Shown here: in pieces, positions 53,514-60,980 of the stretch
Numbering within the stretch: the stretch's first letter is position 1
Layout of the letters: every line of letters starts with the position of its first letter
Assembly (NCBI RefSeq): GCF_000735605.1
Contig: NZ_JPKG01000019.1
Location: 62,001-126,000, forward strand
DNA: 64,000 nucleotides
Direction: 5' to 3'
DNA from: Allobosea sp. LC85
GTDB lineage: Bacteria > Pseudomonadota > Alphaproteobacteria > Rhizobiales > Beijerinckiaceae
Notes under the pieces: model-generated
The model's input: the letters and a program-made list of their open reading frames with translations, nothing else
The model's database searches: none
What the model was told of the DNA's origin: nothing
Translations under genes and position numbers: made by a program

Positions 53514-53882
53514 ATGAATGCCTACATCCCCCTGATTCTGTTTACCGTGCTGACCAATGCAGCCGCGCAACTGATGCTGAAACGGGGCATGACCGGCATC
53601 GGCAATCTCGATATTGCAAGCGACGGACTGGTCTGGACCGTATTTCGGGTGGTCCTCAATCCCTTCGTCTTCGCCGGCCTCTGTACCTTCGTGGTCAGCA
53701 TGGCCTCGCATCTGATCGTCTTGTCCAAGGTACAGATCAGCTACGCCTATCCGTTCCTGAGCCTCGCCTATGTCGTGGTCGCGGTCTACGCCTACTTCGT
53801 CTTCCAGGAAGACCTGAGCCCTGCCCGCATCGCCGGCATTGGCTTCATCGTCCTTGGCACCATCTTCATCGCACAGAGCTGA
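53514..53882 (+). CDS. Small four-helix transporter, SMR/ArnE-F-like
   Basis: 122 aa with four membrane segments (about 2-22, 40-62, 70-90, 98-118). FTVLTNAAAQLMLKRGM near the start and YAYPFLSLAYVVVAVYAYFVFQEDLSPARIAGIGFIVLG near the end fit half-size EamA/ArnE-ArnF proteins that flip polyprenyl-phosphate sugars. It heads the plus-strand side of a cluster with an epimerase, an aminotransferase and the facing UbiA/DprE1-like pair, so flipping of a lipid-linked sugar is plausible. Confidence 0.85.
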   Translation: MNAYIPLILFTVLTNAAAQLMLKRGMTGIGNLDIASDGLVWTVFRVVLNPFVFAGLCTFVVSMASHLIVLSKVQISYAYPFLSLAYVVVAVYAYFVFQEDLSPARIAGIGFIVLGTIFIAQS

Positions 53883-53885
53883 GCC

Positions 53886-54020
53886 ATGATGGACCGGATC
53901 GCACGTTTCATTCTCCGCCTCGGCCTCCTGTTCGAGCCGCCCGAGAACAGGCCGGTCTTGCGTCCGGTGTCAGTACCGGTCCGTGACCGGCGCCCTCGCC
54001 TTCCCGACACGTCGCGCTGA
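53886..54020 (+). CDS. Possible 44-aa ORF between flippase and epimerase
   Basis: ATG three bases after the flippase stop and TGA at 54018-54020. Product MMDRIARFILRLGLLFEPPE followed by a Pro/Arg-rich tail; the first 17 residues could form an amphipathic helix. It fills a 170-base gap in an otherwise tight operon. No homology known and no clear Shine-Dalgarno, so it may be noise. Confidence 0.3.
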   Translation: MMDRIARFILRLGLLFEPPENRPVLRPVSVPVRDRRPRLPDTSR

Positions 54021-54054
54021 CGCAGCCCACCATCGAACCAGCGGCAAACTGAGC

Positions 54055-55047
54055 ATGAAACACATCATCATCGGCGGAGACGGCTTCGTCGGCTCGCATC
54101 TGGCGGCGGATCTTGCCGCCATGGGCGAGGAGGTGCTGGTCGCGGATATCCAGAAGAGTAGTCACGTCCATTACGCAACGGTGCCCTTCCAGAAGATCGA
54201 CGTGACCAGGGCCGAGAGCGTGGAGAGCATCAAGCTCGGCCAGGACGATCTCGTCTACAATCTCTCGGCCAAGATGCTCTCGCCCATCGTGACCCGCAGG
54301 GAACGCCACGATTTCTTCTGGCCGGTGAACTATCACGGCACCGCCAACATCCTGGACTGGATGGAGAAGCGCGGCGCCAACAAGCTCGTCCACTTCACCA
54401 CGGACATGATCTACGGCCATTCCATCACCGTGCCGCAGGACGAGACCCATCCGGCGAAACCGCTCGGCGAATATGGCGAGAGCAAGCTCGCCACCGAGAC
54501 CCTGGCGCAGACCTATCGCGACAAGGGCTTTCAGATCCCGATCTTCCGGCCCCGCCTGATCATCGGCCCGGGCCGCCTCGGCATCCTCGTCAAGCTCTTC
54601 CGCCTGATCGACATGAACCTGCCGGTGCCGATGATCGGCGGCGGCGGCAACCCCTACCAGTTCATCTCGGTGTTCGACTGCGCCAGCGCCTGCACGGCAG
54701 CCTGGAAGGCCGACTTCCCCAACAGCGCCTACAATCTCGGCTCGGACGATCCGCCGCCGGTCAGGAAGCTGCTGGGGGACCTGATCAGGCATGCCGGCTC
54801 GAAATCGATCCTGCTGCCGACGCCTGCACCCTTGGTCAAGTTCGCCCTGAACACGCTTGACGCGATCAACCTGCCGATCATGGACCCGGAGCAGTACATG
54901 ATCGCCGACGAGATCTGCATTCTCGACACCAGCAAGGCCAAGCGCGAGCTCGGCTGGACTCCGAAATACCGCGACGAGGACATGCTGCTCGCCGCCTATA
55001 CCGAGTATCGCAAGAGCAAGGGCGAGCAGAGGAGCAAGGCCGCATGA
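54055..55047 (+). CDS. NAD-dependent epimerase/dehydratase (extended SDR)
   Basis: 330 aa. Nucleotide motif MKHIIIGGDGFVGSHLA (GxxGxxG), TTDMIYG in place of the usual catalytic Ser/Thr segment and YGESK for the Tyr-x3-Lys pair; C-terminal KRELGWTPKYRDEDML is typical of sugar epimerases and also hopanoid-type SDRs. It is coupled to the next gene by ATGA. In this cluster it could act as the reductase partner of the DprE1-like oxidase or modify a nucleotide sugar. Confidence 0.88.
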   Translation: MKHIIIGGDGFVGSHLAADLAAMGEEVLVADIQKSSHVHYATVPFQKIDVTRAESVESIKLGQDDLVYNLSAKMLSPIVTRRERHDFFWPVNYHGTANILDWMEKRGANKLVHFTTDMIYGHSITVPQDETHPAKPLGEYGESKLATETLAQTYRDKGFQIPIFRPRLIIGPGRLGILVKLFRLIDMNLPVPMIGGGGNPYQFISVFDCASACTAAWKADFPNSAYNLGSDDPPPVRKLLGDLIRHAGSKSILLPTPAPLVKFALNTLDAINLPIMDPEQYMIADEICILDTSKAKRELGWTPKYRDEDMLLAAYTEYRKSKGEQRSKAA

Positions 55048-56483
55048 GCATGCCAGCTTTCAGGAACGAAGACTCCCCCGCCCGCCCGAAGCTGATCAGC
55101 GTCGAGGAAGCCAAGCAGCTCGACGCCGCACAGGTGAAGGAGCTCTTTGCCAACCACATCAACCCCGGCCAGTTGCATTTCCTCAAGCTGCTCGGCTTCG
55201 ACAAGATCCTCGTCGATCGTGCCGAGGGCATGCACTACATCACCAGGGACGGTCGCAGGATCCTCGATTTCTTCGGCGGGTTCTGCTCGGTCGCCTTCGG
55301 TCATAACCACCCGCGCATCATCGCCGCCCGGCAAAAATTCCAGGACGAGAACCGCCACGAGATCTGCATGGCGTTCATGTCGCAATATGCGGCAGCCTTG
55401 GCCAGGAATCTTGCCACGATCTCGCCCGGCGACCTCGACATGGTTTTTCTGGGCTCGACCGGCTCGGAGGCCATGGAAGCCGCGCTGAAGGTCGCCGAGC
55501 AGGTTCAGGGCCCCGGCAAGTCGAAGATCCTGCATGCCGCGAACTCGTTCCACGGCAAGACCAAGGGCGTGCTCTCGGTCACGGATTCGACGCTCTACCA
55601 GTCCCAGTTCAAGCTGGTCGAGAACCGGGTCAAGGTGCCGTTCGGCAATATCGAGGCCGTGCGCCTGGCGCTCGAATCCGACCCAGCGATCGGCATCGTC
55701 GTGATGGAGACGATCCAGGGCGGGGGCGGCATCGTCGAGGCCCCTGAAGGCTTCTGGCGCGACTTGCGCGCGCTCTGCGACAAGCACGGCGTGCTCTGGA
55801 TCGCCGATGAAGTGCAATGCGGGCTCGGCCGCACCGGCCAGTTCTTCGCCTTCGAGCGCGACGGCGTCGTGCCCGACGTCACCGCACTCGCCAAGGCTCT
55901 TGGCGGCTCCAAGGCCGCGATGGGCGCCATGATCGCCCGGCGCGAGCTCTACATGAAGGCCTATGGCAAGCCGAAGACTGCGTTGATCCATGCGCAAGCC
56001 ACCTTCGGCGGCATGGGCGAGGCCTGCATCAGCGCGATCGAGGCACTCAACGTGCTCTATGAGGAAGATCTCATGGGCAACGCCAAGCGCCAGGGCGACT
56101 ACCTGATCGAGAGGCTGAACGCCCTTCGCGCCAAGCATCCGACGCTGCTCAAGGAGATCCGCGGCCGCGGCCTGATGATTGGTGTCGAGTTCCAGGACAT
56201 CAGCGAAGCCATGCCTTTCGGCGTCAGGCACATGGTCGCGCTGCTCGACGACAAGCTGAAGGGCTCGCTCTGCGGCTTCGTCGGCGCACTGCTCCTGAAG
56301 GACTACGACGTGCTCGTCGCCTTCACCGAGTACAACCGCAATGTCATTCGCCTCGAACCGCCGCTGATCGTGACGCGCGAGCAATGCGACCAGTTCATCG
56401 AGGCGCTCGACGACCTGCTCTCGCGCGGCATCACGCGGATCGTCACCGACTATCTGCGCAAGGTTGCAACCGCGAAGAGCTGA
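55044..56483 (+). CDS. Class III aminotransferase
   Basis: 479 aa fold-type I PLP enzyme. GGFCSVAFGHNHPRI, LGSTGSEAMEAALKVAEQ, HGKTKGVLSVTD, LWIADEVQCGLGRTG and the PLP lysine in VTALAKALGGSKAAMG define class III (ornithine/aspartate aminotransferase-like). Overlaps the epimerase gene by 4 bases. Class III enzymes in lipid and envelope pathways include HpnO of aminohopanoid synthesis, which is one alternative role; amination of a keto-sugar is another. An intrinsic terminator follows. Confidence 0.9.
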   Translation: MSMPAFRNEDSPARPKLISVEEAKQLDAAQVKELFANHINPGQLHFLKLLGFDKILVDRAEGMHYITRDGRRILDFFGGFCSVAFGHNHPRIIAARQKFQDENRHEICMAFMSQYAAALARNLATISPGDLDMVFLGSTGSEAMEAALKVAEQVQGPGKSKILHAANSFHGKTKGVLSVTDSTLYQSQFKLVENRVKVPFGNIEAVRLALESDPAIGIVVMETIQGGGGIVEAPEGFWRDLRALCDKHGVLWIADEVQCGLGRTGQFFAFERDGVVPDVTALAKALGGSKAAMGAMIARRELYMKAYGKPKTALIHAQATFGGMGEACISAIEALNVLYEEDLMGNAKRQGDYLIERLNALRAKHPTLLKEIRGRGLMIGVEFQDISEAMPFGVRHMVALLDDKLKGSLCGFVGALLLKDYDVLVAFTEYNRNVIRLEPPLIVTREQCDQFIEALDDLLSRGITRIVTDYLRKVATAKS

Positions 56484-56503
56484 GCGTCCTGCCCAGGCGG
56501 TTT

Positions 56504-56530
56504 AAAGGGCCGGCATGCTCCGGCCCTTTT
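56504..56530 (+). terminator. Rho-independent terminator after aminotransferase
   Basis: Stem AAAGGGCCGG / CCGGCCCTTT (56504-56513, 56520-56529) with a six-base loop and T4 tail, 20 bases after the aminotransferase stop. Ends the plus-strand flippase-epimerase-aminotransferase message. Confidence 0.85.
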
Positions 56531-56606
56531 GCGTCGCAGAGCCTGCTGACGGAACTCCGTGGACGCTCGTGCAAAAAGCTGTCCCGCAACATCAGTCCGG
56601 TGAGCC

Positions 56607-56924
56607 ATGCTGAGCCATCTCTCCTTCGGTGTGTCCGATCTCCCACGCGATGGTGCAGGCTACGGCCCGCCGAACGGCGGCGACCTCCTGGCGTTGAAGC
56701 TGCAGGCTGGCCCGGTCACCCCGCCGGGGCCGGGCTTCCACCTCGCCTTCGCGGCAGGGTCGCGTCGGGCTGCCGACGACTTCCATCGGGCCGCGCTTGC
56801 CGCAGGCGGAAAGGACAATGGCGCACCCGGATTACGGCCGCGCTACGCACCTGACTATTACGCTGCCTTCGTCATCGATCCGGAGGGCTATCGGCTCGAA
56901 GCTGTCACCCGTGCGACGGACTGA
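56607..56924 (+). CDS. VOC-family protein, shortened
   Basis: 105 aa. Start MLSHLSFGVSDLPRD and the rest (GYGPPNGGDLLALK, GPGFHLAFAAGSR, GAPGLRPRYAPDYYAAFVIDPEGYRLEAV) match glyoxalase-like VOC proteins of about 122-125 aa. About 20 residues that normally follow DLxRA (FYDxVLxxLG and the next strand) are missing in frame. The lost part contains a strand of the first beta-alpha-beta unit, so activity is doubtful. Convergent with the oxidase gene, gap 6 bases. Confidence 0.75.
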   Translation: MLSHLSFGVSDLPRDGAGYGPPNGGDLLALKLQAGPVTPPGPGFHLAFAAGSRRAADDFHRAALAAGGKDNGAPGLRPRYAPDYYAAFVIDPEGYRLEAVTRATD

Positions 56925-56930
56925 GCGGAC

Positions 56931-58244
56931 TCAGCCTGCGGTCACGCGTCGCCAGAAGCCGGATGAGAAGCCTGGATCGACATGGCGGGCGAAGTCCCGC
57001 CATTGCGGGAAGGACGCCTCGAAGGTCGCAGGCGACATGCGGGCATCCTTGTAAGGGTTCACCCGCCCACCAGCCGCGATTGCGACGCGATCGAGTTCGT
57101 CCAGCAGCTTGAGGGTGCGCTCGCCGCGATGCGGGAAGTCGAGCGTCAGGGTCGCGCCCGCAACCGGAAACGACATCATGCCCGGCGAGGGCACGTCCCC
57201 AAACAGCTTCAGCACCGTCAGGAAGGATGCCTCGCCGGCCGCGAGCGTCCGCCTCAGCATCTCCTCGACCGCGATATGCGCCTGCGCCATCGGCACCGCA
57301 CATTGGAACTGGCGCAGGCCCCGCGGCCCATAGGCGCGGTTCCAGTTGCTCACCCGGTCGAGCGGGTAGAAGAACGGCCGATAGGGAATGCGCCTCGGCT
57401 CCGGCGAGCGCGGCTGCGCGGCCCGGTAGAGCATGTTGAAGGCGCGTAGCGTCAGGCGATTGATCAGCGGAAACGGAGGATTGATCGGGAATGGCAGCGG
57501 GCGGGCGGCGCGCGGTTGCGGCCGTTCCGACGCCGGTGCGTGATTGGCACGGAAGAAGACGCCGCGTCCGAACCCGGCCCCGCCGGCAAGCGAGTCGATC
57601 CAGGCCACGGTGTATTCATGCGTTGCATCGGATTCCGCTGCGACCTCGAAGAAGCGGTCGAGGCTCAGGAAATGGATCGCCTCCTGGCGCATCTCGGCGG
57701 ACTGGATCGGCATCAGCTGCAACGTTACCTGGGTGATCAGCCCGGTCAGCCCATAGCCGCCGATCGTAGCGGCGAACAACTCCTTGTTCATGTCGGGGGC
57801 GCAGGTGAGCCGGCCTCCGTCCGAACGGGCCAGTTCGAAGGCACGCACATGCCGCCCGAACGTGCCGGCGCGATGGTGGTTCTTGCCATGCACATCGTTG
57901 GCGAGTGCCCCCCCGATGGTGACGAAGGCGGTGCCCGGAGTCACCGGCAGGAACCAGCCCAGCGGCACCACCTGCTCCAGGATGGTGTCCAGCAACACTC
58001 CGGCTTCGCAGGTGATCAACCCGCTTTCGCGATCGAAGGCCAGGATCTGATCGAGGCGGCGCGCCGCGATTAGCCCGCCGCCATCATTGAGGCAGGAATC
58101 GCCATAAGAACGGCCATTGCCGTAAGCGAGCACTGCCGAAGGGTAGCGCCCGGGCTCGGCACTCCAGGCGTCCGGCATGATGATCTGCGAATCCCGGGCA
58201 ATGAGGCCGCCCCAGGACCTGTACTCGGGCCTTCGCCCGTTCAC
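56931..58244 (-). CDS. DprE1-like FAD-dependent oxidase
   Basis: 437 aa. FAD-binding landmarks of decaprenylphosphoryl-ribose oxidase: LAYGNGRSYGDSCLNDGGG, TPGTAFVTIGGALANDVHGK then NHHRAGTFGRHVR, and GGYGLTGLITQVTLQLMP. The active-site lysine region aligns as NPYKDAR. The cysteine that benzothiazinones attack in the mycobacterial enzyme is a threonine here (GATLTLDF for GWNFCVDF). By family it oxidises C2 of a polyprenyl-phospho-pentose. Coupled to the UbiA-type gene by ATGA. Confidence 0.88.
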   Translation of the reverse strand: MNGRRPEYRSWGGLIARDSQIIMPDAWSAEPGRYPSAVLAYGNGRSYGDSCLNDGGGLIAARRLDQILAFDRESGLITCEAGVLLDTILEQVVPLGWFLPVTPGTAFVTIGGALANDVHGKNHHRAGTFGRHVRAFELARSDGGRLTCAPDMNKELFAATIGGYGLTGLITQVTLQLMPIQSAEMRQEAIHFLSLDRFFEVAAESDATHEYTVAWIDSLAGGAGFGRGVFFRANHAPASERPQPRAARPLPFPINPPFPLINRLTLRAFNMLYRAAQPRSPEPRRIPYRPFFYPLDRVSNWNRAYGPRGLRQFQCAVPMAQAHIAVEEMLRRTLAAGEASFLTVLKLFGDVPSPGMMSFPVAGATLTLDFPHRGERTLKLLDELDRVAIAAGGRVNPYKDARMSPATFEASFPQWRDFARHVDPGFSSGFWRRVTAG

Positions 58245-59131
58245 GGCAAGACCGTCGCGGCGACCATGACCAGCAGCACCAGCCCGCCCGTCACCTGGCT
58301 GCGCCAGTCGCGGATCATGAAGATCAGCGGATCATCCGGCATCTGGCCACGGCGGGCGAGAAACCAGATCCGCGCCATCTGATAGAGGATGATCGGGCAG
58401 ACCAGCCAGATGATCTCGGGATGACGATAAAGCTGCTTCACAGCCGCGCTGTCGACATAGAGCGCCATGATCAGCGCGCAGGTGCAGCCCGAGGCCATGC
58501 CGAGCTGCGAGAGGGCCTCGACATCCTCGGCCTGATAGCCGCGGCCAGCCTTCTTCAGCCCGGACTGGTCCTGCGTGATCCGCAGCTCCGCATAGCGCTT
58601 CACCAGCGCGAGGCTGAAGAACAGGAACATCGAGAAGGCGAGCAGCCAGGACGAGACGGGAATCGCCGCCGCTGCGTTGCCGGCCAGGATGCGCAGGGTA
58701 TGCAGAGCCGCGAGCCCGAGCACATCGACCAACAGCTTGCGCTTGAGAACGAACAGATAGAGCAGGGCCAGGATCAGATAGGCGGTCAGCGCCAGCAGGA
58801 ACGCGCGCGGCTCAGGCACGAACACCGACGAGGCGAAGGCCGCGATCACCAGCAGAGGCACCGCAGCATAGGCCTGCCTCTCGGTGATCTCGCCGGCAGC
58901 CAGCGGACGCCTGCACTTGGTCGGATGGCGGCGATCGGCCTCGACATCGACGATATCGTTGAGGAGATAGATGGCCGAGGCGAGCAGGCTGAACGCGACG
59001 AAGGCAATCGCCCCGTGACCGATCGCAGCGAGATCGAACACGTCATGGTTCAGCAGGATCGGGACGAAGACGAGCCCGTTCTTGAGCCAGTGATGCGGCC
59101 GCATCGCTCGGATCATCGCGCGAACAGACAT
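58241..59131 (-). CDS. UbiA-family polyprenyl-phosphate phosphoribosyltransferase-like protein
   Basis: 296 aa with about nine membrane helices. RPHHWLKNGLVFVPILL at the start and NDIVDVEADRRHPTKCRRPLAAG (58890-58960) fit the DppR-synthase branch of UbiA, which attaches phosphoribose from PRPP to polyprenyl phosphate, rather than quinone prenylation. Pairing with the DprE1-like gene supports that. NoeC, which takes part in Nod-factor arabinosylation in Azorhizobium, belongs to the same group. Start at MSVRAMIRAMRP. Confidence 0.87.
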   Translation of the reverse strand: MSVRAMIRAMRPHHWLKNGLVFVPILLNHDVFDLAAIGHGAIAFVAFSLLASAIYLLNDIVDVEADRRHPTKCRRPLAAGEITERQAYAAVPLLVIAAFASSVFVPEPRAFLLALTAYLILALLYLFVLKRKLLVDVLGLAALHTLRILAGNAAAAIPVSSWLLAFSMFLFFSLALVKRYAELRITQDQSGLKKAGRGYQAEDVEALSQLGMASGCTCALIMALYVDSAAVKQLYRHPEIIWLVCPIILYQMARIWFLARRGQMPDDPLIFMIRDWRSQVTGGLVLLVMVAATVLP

Positions 59132-59306
59132 GTCAAAGCCCTTGCCCACCTTCAGGGGCGCCCGTCGATCGAATGATGATCGTCATGGCTTCCCGTGCGA
59201 GGCGAACAGAACGGCCTCGGCGCGTCCTGCTATGGCGGTCAAATCCCTAAACCGCGGTGGAAATCCCGTTCGCCTCGCCGAGATTCAGGCACCATGCTTA
59301 ATGACT

Positions 59307-59352: not shown

Positions 59353-59712
59353 TCAGAGCGCTTTTTTTGCGGCCACAGCGGTGATCTCGATCGCATATCC
59401 CGGCGAAGCGAGCTTCGCCTCCACCGTTGCGCGCGCCGGCGCGCTGCCCCGGGCGACCCATTTGTCCCAGACGGCGTTCATCTCGGCGATGCGCGCAATA
59501 TCGGTCAGGAAGATCTGCACGCTCAGAATCCGGTCCTTCGCGCTGCCGGCCGCTTCGAGCGTTTCCGCGAGCAGAGCCAACACCTCTTCGGTCTGTCGTG
59601 TCAGCGTCTCCCCTTCGGTCTTCTCCGCGACATGGCCGGCGAGAAAGACGATGCCGTTGAAAATGGCGGCGTCGCACCACCGTTCCGTCAGGCCTATACG
59701 TTCGATCGACAT
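59353..59712 (-). CDS. RidA/YjgF-family protein (first)
   Basis: 119 aa, one RidA domain. The substrate-binding arginine is present (SAPARATVEAKL) along with YAIEITAVAA. RidA proteins hydrolyse reactive enamines/imines. Start at MSIERIGLTERW; the frame upstream to 59817 is not family-like. Part of the allantoin-linked region with a second RidA at 59999. Confidence 0.9.
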   Translation of the reverse strand: MSIERIGLTERWCDAAIFNGIVFLAGHVAEKTEGETLTRQTEEVLALLAETLEAAGSAKDRILSVQIFLTDIARIAEMNAVWDKWVARGSAPARATVEAKLASPGYAIEITAVAAKKAL

Positions 59713-59998
59713 GGCTCGGTATCTTCCTGGTTGCTTGAGTCGTGACGGCATTGCGCGTCGCGAATGCCCAAGCCGGCCGCGGAATGCAACTCCACGACAG
59801 GCTGGCCCGCTCCGCACTCATGCGCGAACTGGCGCAAGCCTGGTCATTGACTGCAAAGGGTTAAGCAACGTCCAGGGCACCATCGATGCGCGGCAGGAGA
59901 CGGCGCGACGGTACGATCAGGCCGAGCGGTCAGGGCACCGGTCCAGCGTCGGGCCTCAGGATGCAAGCGCGGTTGAGCGCGTCGCGCGATCGCGAGAG

Positions 59999-60388
59999 TT
60001 ACTTCGCTTCACCGAGGTAAGCGGTCGCGTCGATTTCGACGAGACAGTCGGGCGAACCGAGGCCATTGACGATGCAGGATACGCGATGCGGCGGGTCCTC
60101 AGCGAAATTGGCGAAATAGACGTCGTTCATCGGCTCCCAATAGCAGCGGTCGGTGACATAGACGGTGCACTTCACAACATCCTTCAGGCTGCCGCCTGCC
60201 TCCTCGAGGAGGGCACGGATGTTGTCGATGCATTGCTGCGTCTGACGCCGCGCATCGCCGACAGCATATTTTCCCTCCCTGTCCACCCCGACACAGCAGA
60301 CGAACATGAAGTCCCCAGCGACCGTTGCCTGGGCGAAGGGGAGCCTTCCCTTGAAGACACGGTCGGAAGAGATGGTGCGTTTGGGCAT
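59999..60388 (-). CDS. RidA/YjgF-family protein (second)
   Basis: 129 aa. RidA domain with the binding arginine in PPHRVSCIVNGL and LEEAGGSLKDVVKCTVYVTD. It differs clearly from the first copy, so this is not a recent duplication. RidA members also occur in pyrimidine and purine nitrogen pathways (RutC type), which fits the divergent allA/puuE operon. Confidence 0.9.
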   Translation of the reverse strand: MPKRTISSDRVFKGRLPFAQATVAGDFMFVCCVGVDREGKYAVGDARRQTQQCIDNIRALLEEAGGSLKDVVKCTVYVTDRCYWEPMNDVYFANFAEDPPHRVSCIVNGLGSPDCLVEIDATAYLGEAK

Positions 60389-60980
60389 CGTGGACCTATG
60401 GAGTGAGGGAGTTGCGCGGCAACCCGCCGCCATCGGGCATCGTCGCGACAGCTGCTGTCGTGAGACTTGCATAAACCAGCAGCGGCGTCGGAACGCAGAC
60501 TAACCGAGGGTCAGAATCCCAGCCAGACGGGTCATCGCGTCCAGCCTCAGATAGTTGTGGGAGAGCTGGCGTGCCAATCAGGATAAAACTGCGAACGCAT
60601 ATGTATTTGAAATACCAATATAATTCCAGCATTCTGACCGAGGTCAAGCCGCGCTTGCACTTTTTTGCTAGCAGCCGGACCTGGCCCCATTCCCGACATT
60701 TGGAGAGTCTGCTTTCGGCAGGTGTGTCTTGCTACCGACCAATGGCGCACAACTGGCGATGGATCCAACGAGCACATTTGACACGTGGTCTCTTCGGCAG
60801 GACGCGGATCGTCGACGGGGAAAGTTCGGATGTAGAGCGGACGGTCGCGCCCATAATGGGATACCGCTTTTATATCACTGCGCGCTATTTGTGCACGACT
60901 GGCGCATTTTCCTGCCGCTACTTCCTTCGTTGCGAGGTTTCTTTGATCTAGCTTGGGATACCAAGCTGAAGAGCATCGCC
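60389..60980. other. Regulatory region between RidA and GntR genes
   Basis: About 590 bases with no credible gene and locally lower GC (60560-60680). It contains an exact 13-bp palindrome GTATTTGAAATAC (60603-60615), a good candidate operator for the GntR regulator that follows. Open frames here (for example 60571-60951) have no domain and unusual composition. Confidence 0.5.
60603..60615. promoter_or_regulatory. Palindromic candidate operator for the allantoin cluster
   Basis: GTATTTGAAATAC is a perfect palindrome around a central G, between the divergent RidA and GntR/allA/puuE genes. Shape and place suit a GntR site. Confidence 0.35.

Follow-up and report, generated by a model that had tools for sequence, protein, structure and literature searches.

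A candidate pathway to a lipid-linked aminopentofuranose, with a class III aminotransferase in the place of DprE2 beside DprE1

The window, by which we mean the whole stretch of 64,000 nucleotides analysed here, comes from a Bosea genome (G000). Within it lie genes for a small flippase-like protein, an extended SDR and a class III aminotransferase (hereafter AT, a term that also covers its homologues) on the forward strand and, facing them on the reverse strand, genes for a DprE1-type oxidase and a UbiA-type transferase (Table 1). All five ORFs had been claimed by the original prediction and all are present, as are the two couplings it proposed, which take the form of 4-base overlaps between the SDR stop and AT start (55044-55047) and between the UbiA stop and DprE1 start (58241-58244). 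The end given for the UbiA gene needs correcting: the reverse-strand ATG at position 59131 lies inside the ORF, six codons from its start, and the ORF extends to 59149. The first gene list also lacked a small ORF between flippase and SDR. This ORF, 33-45 aa long in relatives, occurs in every one of the 32 Bosea-type loci with a flippase gene (L042, where the locus is cut, stands outside this count). It has a hydrophobic or amphipathic start and a Pro/Arg-rich tail, and over its first 16 codons the differences at codon positions 1, 2 and 3 are 0.216, 0.125 and 0.373, respectively.

Table 1. Genes and features of the locus, in window coordinates.
Feature	Coordinates	Strand	Remarks
Small EamA/ArnE-F-like protein, likely flippase of a lipid-linked sugar	53514..53882	+	122 aa
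Conserved small ORF between flippase and SDR	53886..54020	+	44 aa
Extended GalE-type SDR, optional tailoring enzyme, candidate epimerase	54055..55047	+	330 aa; alternative GTG start 53983
Class III PLP aminotransferase (AT), proposed aminator of the DprE1-made 2-keto group	55044..56483	+	479 aa
Terminator-like hairpin 3' of the AT gene, GGGCCGG-CATGCT-CCGGCCC-TTTT	56505..56530	+	read directly from the sequence
DprE1-type FAD oxidase, polyprenyl-phospho-ribofuranose 2-oxidase by family	56931..58244	-	437 aa
UbiA-family polyprenyl-phosphate phosphoribosyltransferase	58241..59149	-	302 aa

The window oxidase matches FAD_binding_4 and the DprE1 model NF053785 (E 2e-103); as its 347 bits fall short of that model's cut-off of 500, it is not a mycobacterial equivalog by this measure. 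It nevertheless matches DprE1 in the PDB by sequence (E 3.3e-71) and has the flavin-site His and Lys, and the residues aligned with Mtb Tyr60, His132, Lys134, Gln334, Gln336, Lys367 and Lys418 are invariant across 39 AT-type and 22 DprE2-type sequences. The UbiA-type protein passes model NF006088 (383.3 against a cut-off of 351) and matches DPPR synthase (8j8j, E 1.6e-32), and the NDxxDxxxD motif is found in all 55 UbiA proteins checked. By family and motif it qualifies as a PRPP-type polyprenyl phosphoribose synthase, an activity that we infer. UbiA homologues outside Bosea carry an N-terminal HAD phosphatase domain that Bosea UbiA lacks; with the domain of L066 as query, no match at E 1e-6 was found in any of the 37 genus genomes, and the 5-phosphatase of the Bosea pathway is unidentified.

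On the other strand, the small flippase-like protein scores 27.7 bits against EamA, just below the Pfam threshold of 28.2, and matches the ArnF and ArnE models at E 7.6e-16 and 9.6e-10. Since both scores (58.6 and 38.7 bits) are below the respective cut-offs of 99 and 92, we regard it as a relative of ArnE/ArnF and not an equivalog; it is likely the flippase of a lipid-linked sugar, flipping itself being inferred. The SDR belongs to the NAD-epimerase family, is GalE-type and has its YxxxK motif at residue 140.

The AT matches Aminotran_3 at E 5.9e-86. By sequence it comes closest to PigE and putrescine aminotransferase; among solved structures PigE, PatA and ArgD are nearest, none of them a sugar enzyme. 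Residues 87-471 of a structure model (mean pLDDT 75.9) match PatA/PigE (Z 33.5-35), and the model does not allow the substrate to be distinguished. Lys284 and Asp255 are invariant across 26 aligned members; from alignment with PigE, we take Lys284 to be the PLP-lysine position.

HpnO, the hopanoid C35 aminotransferase, had been named as an alternative identity for the AT, which would then make aminobacteriohopanetriol. Both are class III enzymes of similar length, and hpnO is reported in Hyphomicrobiales (PMC12583986). The alternative fails, however: HpnH exceeds the TIGR03470 cut-off in none of the 37 genus genomes (3 of 61 overall), and, according to a passage of the same source, the genera without shc include Bosea, Hoeflea, Mesorhizobium, Aurantimonas, Brucella, Phyllobacterium and Pararhizobium (PMC12583986). 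Moreover, in G058 (L120) an AT lies about 3 kb from HpnH; used as an HpnO-type control on the strength of this position alone, it shares 32 % identity with the window AT. We accord this identity next to no credence, and for the window genome consider it refuted, barring a hopanoid pathway unrelated to HpnH.

Do the facing strands belong together? The survey of gene neighbourhoods that the original prediction had called for has been run, and the genes of both strands are co-conserved in relatives. AT, DprE1, UbiA and flippase (EmrE) are jointly present in 29 of 37 congeneric genomes and jointly absent from the same eight, and this holds even where they are separated by about 18 kb (G009 and G028). 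For a wider view we used the best 80 of 91 confirmed AT loci (99 pattern matches); as these stem from a single genome scan built on the window AT, its distant relatives are unsampled. Alpha- and Gammaproteobacteria and one Thermodesulfobacteriota contig are represented, and AT genes are also present in Chitinophaga and in MAGs of Chloroflexi and Actinomycetota. DprE1 lies within 4.7 kb of the AT in 59 of these 80 loci, and 20 of the remaining 21 AT genomes have DprE1 elsewhere; no DprE1 was detected in one MAG (G081), and three AT genomes (G069, G072 and G073) have no DprE1 detected other than a DprE2-paired one. That two neighbouring units, a flippase-SDR-AT aminosugar cassette and a separate UbiA-DprE1 cassette, face each other by chance would suit the opposite orientation of AT and DprE1, seen in the window and in the 27 loci of Bosea type where both genes are within reach, as well as several Hoeflea genomes with no DprE1 within 10 kb of the AT. 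We think this very improbable, given the all-or-none distribution in the genus, the 23 of 59 loci where AT and DprE1 share a strand, and their proximity in all 12 AT genomes of an order-wide survey (below). All five genes are on one strand in 13 of the 80 loci, and on the Neorhizobium plasmid NZ_CP025513.1 (tblastn) HAD-UbiA, DprE1, flippase, SDR and AT follow one another in that order on one strand. In the thermodesulfobacterial contig L099 (8310-11183), a single 957-aa ORF holds DprE1 and then AT in frame, though this may stem from one sequencing error, being a single case in a metagenome assembly. The arrangement is not a matter of chance, because the unit is conserved whereas the flanking genes vary: the five genes form a unit. 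A polyamine aminotransferase placed there by chance is likewise ruled out by the co-occurrence of AT with DprE1.

The order-wide survey covered 249 genomes, with thresholds of E<=1e-130 for AT, E<=1e-50 for DprE1 and E<=1e-28 for DprE2 (model NF053786). Only a limited number of first-look candidates was scored per genome (at most six for AT and DprE1, up to 54 in the DprE2 searches), so misses are possible in these counts. AT was found in 12 genomes, from eight families, and DprE1 in 36. All 12 AT genomes have DprE1, no more than 3.3 kb away (hypergeometric p 1.4e-11, kinship ignored), and DprE2 was detected in none of them, as against 23 of the 24 DprE1 genomes without AT (Fisher p 1e-8, kinship ignored). 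In 22 of those 23, DprE2 adjoins DprE1. None of the DprE2 matches of this survey reaches the curated cut-off of the model, and they are identified by score rank and adjacency to DprE1; the DprE2-like protein of L118 matches Mtb DprE2 in the PDB at 3.8e-33, the next match being at 1.1e-19. In the window genome no DprE2-like gene was found at E 1e-28 (NF053786; 54 of 73 first-look candidates scored), so that the earlier remark that no DprE2 homologue was visible in the window now extends, within that search, to the whole genome. Among a further 36 AT genomes, hand-picked from the 80 for diversity and possibly overlapping the order sample, 31 have no detected DprE2, and in the other five the best DprE2 match adjoins a DprE1. 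As AT genomes of the order show no DprE2 in 12 cases out of 12, and 22 genomes without AT have DprE2 beside DprE1, we conclude that AT occupies the place of DprE2.

A DprE1 phylogeny (75 labelled rows) indicates that the partner changed between AT and DprE2 at least three times. L101 (365 aa, at a contig end) was left out of this tree, the fused ORF of L099 was trimmed to its DprE1 part, G100 and G263 were unlabelled, and L146-L148, being DprE2-paired, were not counted as AT rows. No AT was found in G100, which keeps UbiA, DprE1, EmrE and SDR and whose DprE2-like gene lies on a separate contig; in G263, DprE1 is present but neither AT nor DprE2 was detected. The DprE1 of each falls among AT-type DprE1, as it would after loss of AT.

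The kinship of the AT to PigE and putrescine aminotransferases, in sequence and in structure, would fit an enzyme that supplies an amine unrelated to the pentose, such as an amino acid or polyamine substituent, in a cluster that makes arabinofuranose and adds a separate modification. The three AT genomes whose only DprE1 is DprE2-paired would fit as well. Such a role leaves unexplained both why DprE2 is absent exactly where AT is present and why DprE1 and AT share a reading frame in L099, and we judge it improbable.

A different possibility, unlikely in our estimate if slightly less so, is that the SDR is a non-orthologous DprE2 which reduces the 2-keto sugar to arabinofuranose, while the AT acts on some other sugar or residue in the same glycan. 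The absence of detectable DprE2 from 12 of 12 and 31 of 36 AT genomes would then be accounted for, and the SDR is indeed a close companion of the AT: their genes overlap in the window, and SDR and flippase each accompany AT in 69 of the 80 loci and in 10 and 11, respectively, of the 12 order-survey genomes with AT. Yet in 11 of the 80 AT loci no SDR was found, which leaves nothing local to reduce the ketone; one of these (L100) breaks off 117 bases ahead of the AT, and the other ten extend further. They include DprE1-AT neighbours in gammaproteobacterial contigs and the DprE1-AT ORF of L099, and in Hoeflea marina (L068) the flippase is followed after 247 bases by the AT with no SDR between. 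G100, conversely, retains SDR and flippase without AT and yet has a DprE2-like gene. It is thus AT, rather than SDR, that tracks DprE2 loss. The original prediction had left reduction by the SDR and amination by the AT side by side; the former is disfavoured on these grounds, and the latter is supported by co-occurrence, all-or-none inheritance in the genus, the DprE1-AT ORF and the mutual exclusion of AT and DprE2 next to DprE1, without biochemical proof. Neither of the two outcomes that the original prediction had named as refuting it was observed, since the genes of both strands are co-conserved and a separate DprE2 was not detected in the window genome.

The reading that we prefer, amination of a DprE1-made 2-keto pentose by the AT, can be set against known systems. 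Three-component pentofuranose systems are described from Citrobacter youngae O1/O2 (Kelly et al. 2024, PMC11127046); there the same scaffold is shown experimentally for ribo- and xylofuranose, ribose, xylose and arabinose are the sugars described so far for the polyprenyl-phosphate pentofuranose route, and an SDR, ORF13, converts ribo- to xylofuranose. The window shares with Citrobacter a UbiA-type phosphoribose synthase, an EmrE/ArnE-like small flippase and a GalE-type auxiliary SDR; in relatives, a GT-C-type gene lies near the cluster. It differs in adding DprE1 and a class III aminotransferase, in the missing HAD phosphatase domain of Bosea and in having no GT-C gene seen in the unit (PMC11127046). 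The word aminotransferase does not occur in the main text of PMC11127046. The window SDR, with its YxxxK motif, sits in the same kind of cluster as ORF13, with no comparison to the ORF13 sequence. With the mycobacterial DprE1/DprE2 arabinofuranose pathway the unit shares UbiA (Rv3806c-like) and DprE1 with conserved catalytic residues, and departs from it in having AT where DprE2 would be. The Arn pathway to undecaprenyl-phospho-L-Ara4N starts from UDP-glucuronate, uses a different aminotransferase family and places nitrogen at C4 before lipid transfer. Common to both are a lipid-phosphate aminopentose (predicted here), an ArnE/F-like flippase and, in relatives, an ArnT-like GT-C; the window route, unlike Arn, is predicted to take its pentose from PRPP and to add nitrogen at C2 on the lipid carrier by a class III aminotransferase.

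We therefore consider it probable that the unit encodes a modified form of the polyprenyl-phosphate pentofuranose donor pathway. What has been observed is the gene content, the protein families, their catalytic motifs, the co-inheritance and the replacement of DprE2; every chemical step, the stereochemistry, flipping and the acceptor are inferred, no substrate or product having been seen. The UbiA protein would transfer phosphoribose from PRPP to polyprenyl phosphate, an unidentified phosphatase would remove the 5-phosphate, and oxidation by DprE1 would leave a ketone at C2 of the lipid-linked ribofuranose. Where DprE2 would restore a hydroxyl, giving arabinofuranose, AT would place an amino group on C2, yielding polyprenyl-phospho-2-amino-2-deoxypentofuranose of arabino or ribo configuration. 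By analogy with ORF13, the SDR may further invert a hydroxyl. The small ArnE/F-like protein would flip the lipid, and a GT-C transferase would hand the aminosugar on to a glycan or lipid of the envelope. Against this reading stand the broad substrate range of class III aminotransferases and the exceptional genomes G069, G072, G073, G081, G100 and G263. The role of the SDR, the 5-phosphatase and the transferase in Bosea remain open.

In the window unit itself no gene for a GT-C transferase was seen. Of 52 loci (L059-L110), 18 have GT-C-like genes near the cluster, 16 of them with family c16 or c62 and two (L090 and L092) with PMT_2. For c16 (13 members in alignment A1), the structure model is similar to ArnT and to the arabinosyltransferase AftA; c62 has no model. 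The c16 homologue of the window genome is on another contig, and c16 occurs in 28 of 29 carriers of the cluster in the genus (one a partial match) and also in 5 of 8 non-carriers. We rejected c16 as the Bosea partner: its predicted fold is GT-C-like, but across the genus it does not track the cluster.

In the open-access literature (subscription papers and preprints being outside our scope, and sources seen only in part) we found no DprE1-aminotransferase pathway and no 2-amino-2-deoxypentofuranose donor. If the proposal is correct, nitrogen chemistry joins the polyprenyl-phosphate pentofuranose route, and many bacteria from soil, plants and the sea are predicted to have an aminopentofuranose in their envelopes. 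Besides L-Ara4N there would be a second, chemically different carrier route that brings a charged aminopentose into the periplasm. Since AT and DprE2 stand in for one another next to DprE1, the genes present would predict whether arabinose or aminopentose is made, and lipid mass spectrometry together with an assay of the two enzymes could test this directly. On balance we lean towards an undescribed activated sugar, transaminated on its lipid carrier in several phyla, which would decorate envelope glycans with a furanose bearing a positive charge; gain or loss of a single gene, AT as against DprE2, would then switch between aminopentose and arabinose.

The five genes named in the original prediction are all present in the window, part of a Bosea genome, with both couplings realised as 4-base overlaps, and a terminator-like hairpin lies 3' of the aminotransferase (AT) gene. 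Between the flippase and SDR genes there is an unannotated small ORF, which recurs in all 32 Bosea-type loci having the flippase gene (length 33-45 aa). Codon differences among these loci fall mostly at third positions, a protein-like pattern, and the product has a hydrophobic/amphipathic N-terminus and a Pro/Arg-rich tail; no counterpart was seen in nine non-Bosea loci checked. The Bosea UbiA protein is missing the N-terminal HAD phosphatase domain that homologues outside the genus carry, and a search for this domain at E 1e-6 gave no match anywhere in the 37 genus genomes.

Coordinates of the window genes and of features in related loci (L numbers)
Feature	Position	Strand	Description
Flippase candidate		+	122 residues; EamA/ArnE-F relative
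Small ORF	53886-54020	+	44 codons
SDR		+	extended GalE type
AT	55044-56483	+	class III aminotransferase
ORF between AT and DprE1	56607-56924	+	105 aa
Oxidase		-	DprE1-like
UbiA protein	58241-59149	-	membrane enzyme, decaprenyl-phosphate phosphoribosyltransferase kind
Rid-family (YjgF) genes	59353-60472	-	two in tandem, adjoining UbiA
DprE1-AT single frame	L099:8310-11183		957 aa
FAD amino-oxidase-type protein	L105:11416-12753, L109:11444-12772		directly after AT
Extended SDR + FAD protein (PRK07233)	L117:9926-12904, L118:4926-7952		after DprE2
One-strand loci	L079-L081, L085-L088, L091, L094-L097, L110		order UbiA, DprE1, flippase, SDR, AT

The five-gene set forms one unit. AT, DprE1, UbiA and flippase (the SDR was not included in this count) are all found in the same 29 of 37 genus genomes and are all missing from the same eight, and the pattern holds even in two genomes (G009 and G028) in which some 18 kb separate AT from DprE1. 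Beyond the genus, one genome per species was scanned for AT across 84,980 species, and the best 80 of 91 confirmed loci were retained. Within the stretches fetched, flippase and SDR are each present in 69/80 loci, DprE1 in 59 and UbiA in 54. DprE1 is at most 4.7 kb from AT in all 59, on the same strand in 23 of them. Where DprE1 is out of reach (21 loci), 20 of the genomes carry one elsewhere. The window's flanking genes are not conserved (GST in 11/80 loci, DUF3422 in 13/80). In 13 of the 80 loci, from Rhizobiaceae, Phyllobacteriaceae, Brucellaceae, Aurantimonadaceae and one unnamed alphaproteobacterium, the genes follow a single order on one strand, with an opposite-strand ORF separating DprE1 from the flippase in L080 and L085. 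On a Thermodesulfobacteriota MAG contig, a single open frame holds both DprE1 and AT; the ORF preceding it reads, by eye, like a glycosyltransferase.

Two further features of the window may be mentioned here. The ORF between AT and DprE1 matched nothing in Pfam or NCBIfam at E 0.001; judging by its motif, it may be a VOC/glyoxalase protein that has lost an internal segment, and similar stretches occur in 5/80 loci. Just one of the 80 loci has the tandem Rid-family genes, which are therefore not part of the unit; the genes to their right look, by reading alone, like purine catabolism.

AT stands where DprE2, the reductase that would turn the 2-keto sugar of DprE1 into arabinofuranose, stands in other genomes, that is, beside DprE1. 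In an order survey of 249 genomes, DprE1 was detected in 36 and AT in 12, all 12 being among the 36; these 12 span eight families, with AT and DprE1 no more than 3.3 kb apart. With model NF053786, DprE2 was detected in 0 of these 12, against 23 of the 24 DprE1 genomes without AT, and in 22 of these 23 it is the gene adjoining DprE1. Among a further 36 AT genomes, hand-picked for diversity, 31 had no DprE2; each of the remaining five has its best DprE2 match adjoining a DprE1. On the DprE1 tree the partner, AT or DprE2, has changed at least three times. The two DprE2-type clusters that were fully read contain, in this order, HAD-UbiA, DprE1, DprE2, a distinct extended SDR and a FAD protein; the last two, in some DprE2-type clusters, are perhaps another tailoring set. 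This SDR again follows DprE2 in six further genomes from the order (L172, L175, L181, L183, L186 and L187).

UbiA and DprE1 retain the residues expected for activity. The NDxxDxxxD motif is present in 55/55 UbiA proteins. In DprE1, the residues aligned with Mtb Tyr60, His132, Lys134, Gln334, Gln336, Lys367 and Lys418 (numbered via alignment to the Mtb protein) are invariant across 39 AT-type and 22 DprE2-type proteins. The AT family is unusually uniform: identity to the AT of the window lies between 58 and 78 % for 25 aligned members, which come from several phyla. Lys284 and Asp255 are invariant among the aligned members, Lys284 occupying the PLP-lysine position in an alignment with PigE. The simplest reading is oxidation followed by amination: DprE1 would give a 2-keto lipid, which AT would then aminate. 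The original prediction had allowed that AT might instead be an HpnO-like enzyme of hopanoid amination. That identity fails, as HpnH is over the cut-off in 0/37 genus genomes, and PMC12583986 places Bosea among genera without a squalene-hopene cyclase.

Several genomes limit confidence in amination by AT. In G100, HAD-UbiA, DprE1, flippase, SDR and the GT-C gene c16 are kept together (locus L150, contig C1) and a DprE2-like gene lies on contig C5, yet AT was not found in this genome; in G263, DprE1 is present and neither AT nor DprE2 was detected. The DprE1 genes of both sit among AT-type ones on the DprE1 tree, as expected if AT was lost or missed there. G069 (Chitinophaga), G072 and G073 carry AT without a DprE1 of its own, the sole DprE1 detected being paired with DprE2, and in a metagenome bin (G081) AT is present and DprE1 was not detected. 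Directly after AT in a Chitinophaga and a Roseobacter, there is a FAD amino-oxidase-type protein, assigned to Amino_oxidase (PRK07208-like) by a family search on the L109 copy, to which the L105 copy is 47 % identical; this perhaps reflects further aminosugar modification, or a different use of AT.

The SDR was not found in 11/80 AT loci (one of which, L100, is cut just before AT) nor in 2/12 AT genomes of the order survey, and therefore looks like an optional tailoring enzyme. L150 offers a natural test case for SDR function in the absence of AT. In Citrobacter, a GalE-type SDR of the same cluster kind converts lipid-linked ribofuranose to xylofuranose (PMC11127046), and by analogy our best guess is that the window-type SDR may perform the same chemistry.

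Five loci in which neither flippase nor SDR was found (L089, L090, L092, L093 and L103) have, upstream of DprE1 or UbiA, a gene similar to that for the TIGR00374 flippase-like protein of L089; four of the five are titled gammaproteobacterial MAGs, including a Methyloprofundus MAG. The assignment comes from a family search on L089 only, the others being identified by tblastn, as was a membrane protein similar to the L089 one (TIGR00374 flippase-like/LPG synthase TM) near DprE1-AT in L154 (genome G218), a locus that likewise yielded neither small flippase nor SDR. Membrane proteins of GT-C character also lie near the cluster in relatives, namely PMT_2 proteins (L090 and L092) and family c16. The single c16 member tested (L069) had no Pfam match. 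For the c16 AlphaFold model (mean pLDDT 85.2), Foldseek ranks ArnT and the arabinosyltransferase AftA first (E 1.6e-4 to 9.7e-4), and VIA-align gives Z 10.6 to ArnT (367 residues, rmsd 5.4) and 10.2 to AftA (425 residues, rmsd 5.9). These scores are level with those to protein O-mannosyltransferases and only moderate for a helical protein. The Bosea c16 homologue is on another contig and does not follow the cluster (28/29 carriers, one by a partial match, and 5/8 non-carriers), so the acceptor glycan there is not assigned.

Among the open-access papers searched we found neither an aminotransferase version of the pathway nor a 2-amino-2-deoxypentofuranose donor. Kelly et al. 2024 (PMC11127046) describe a three-component system of phosphoribose synthase, ArnE-like flippase and GT-C, in which an SDR or DprE1/E2 serve as auxiliary epimerases. 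The main text of that paper mentions no aminotransferase; the Bosea set includes one, within what appears to be the same frame.
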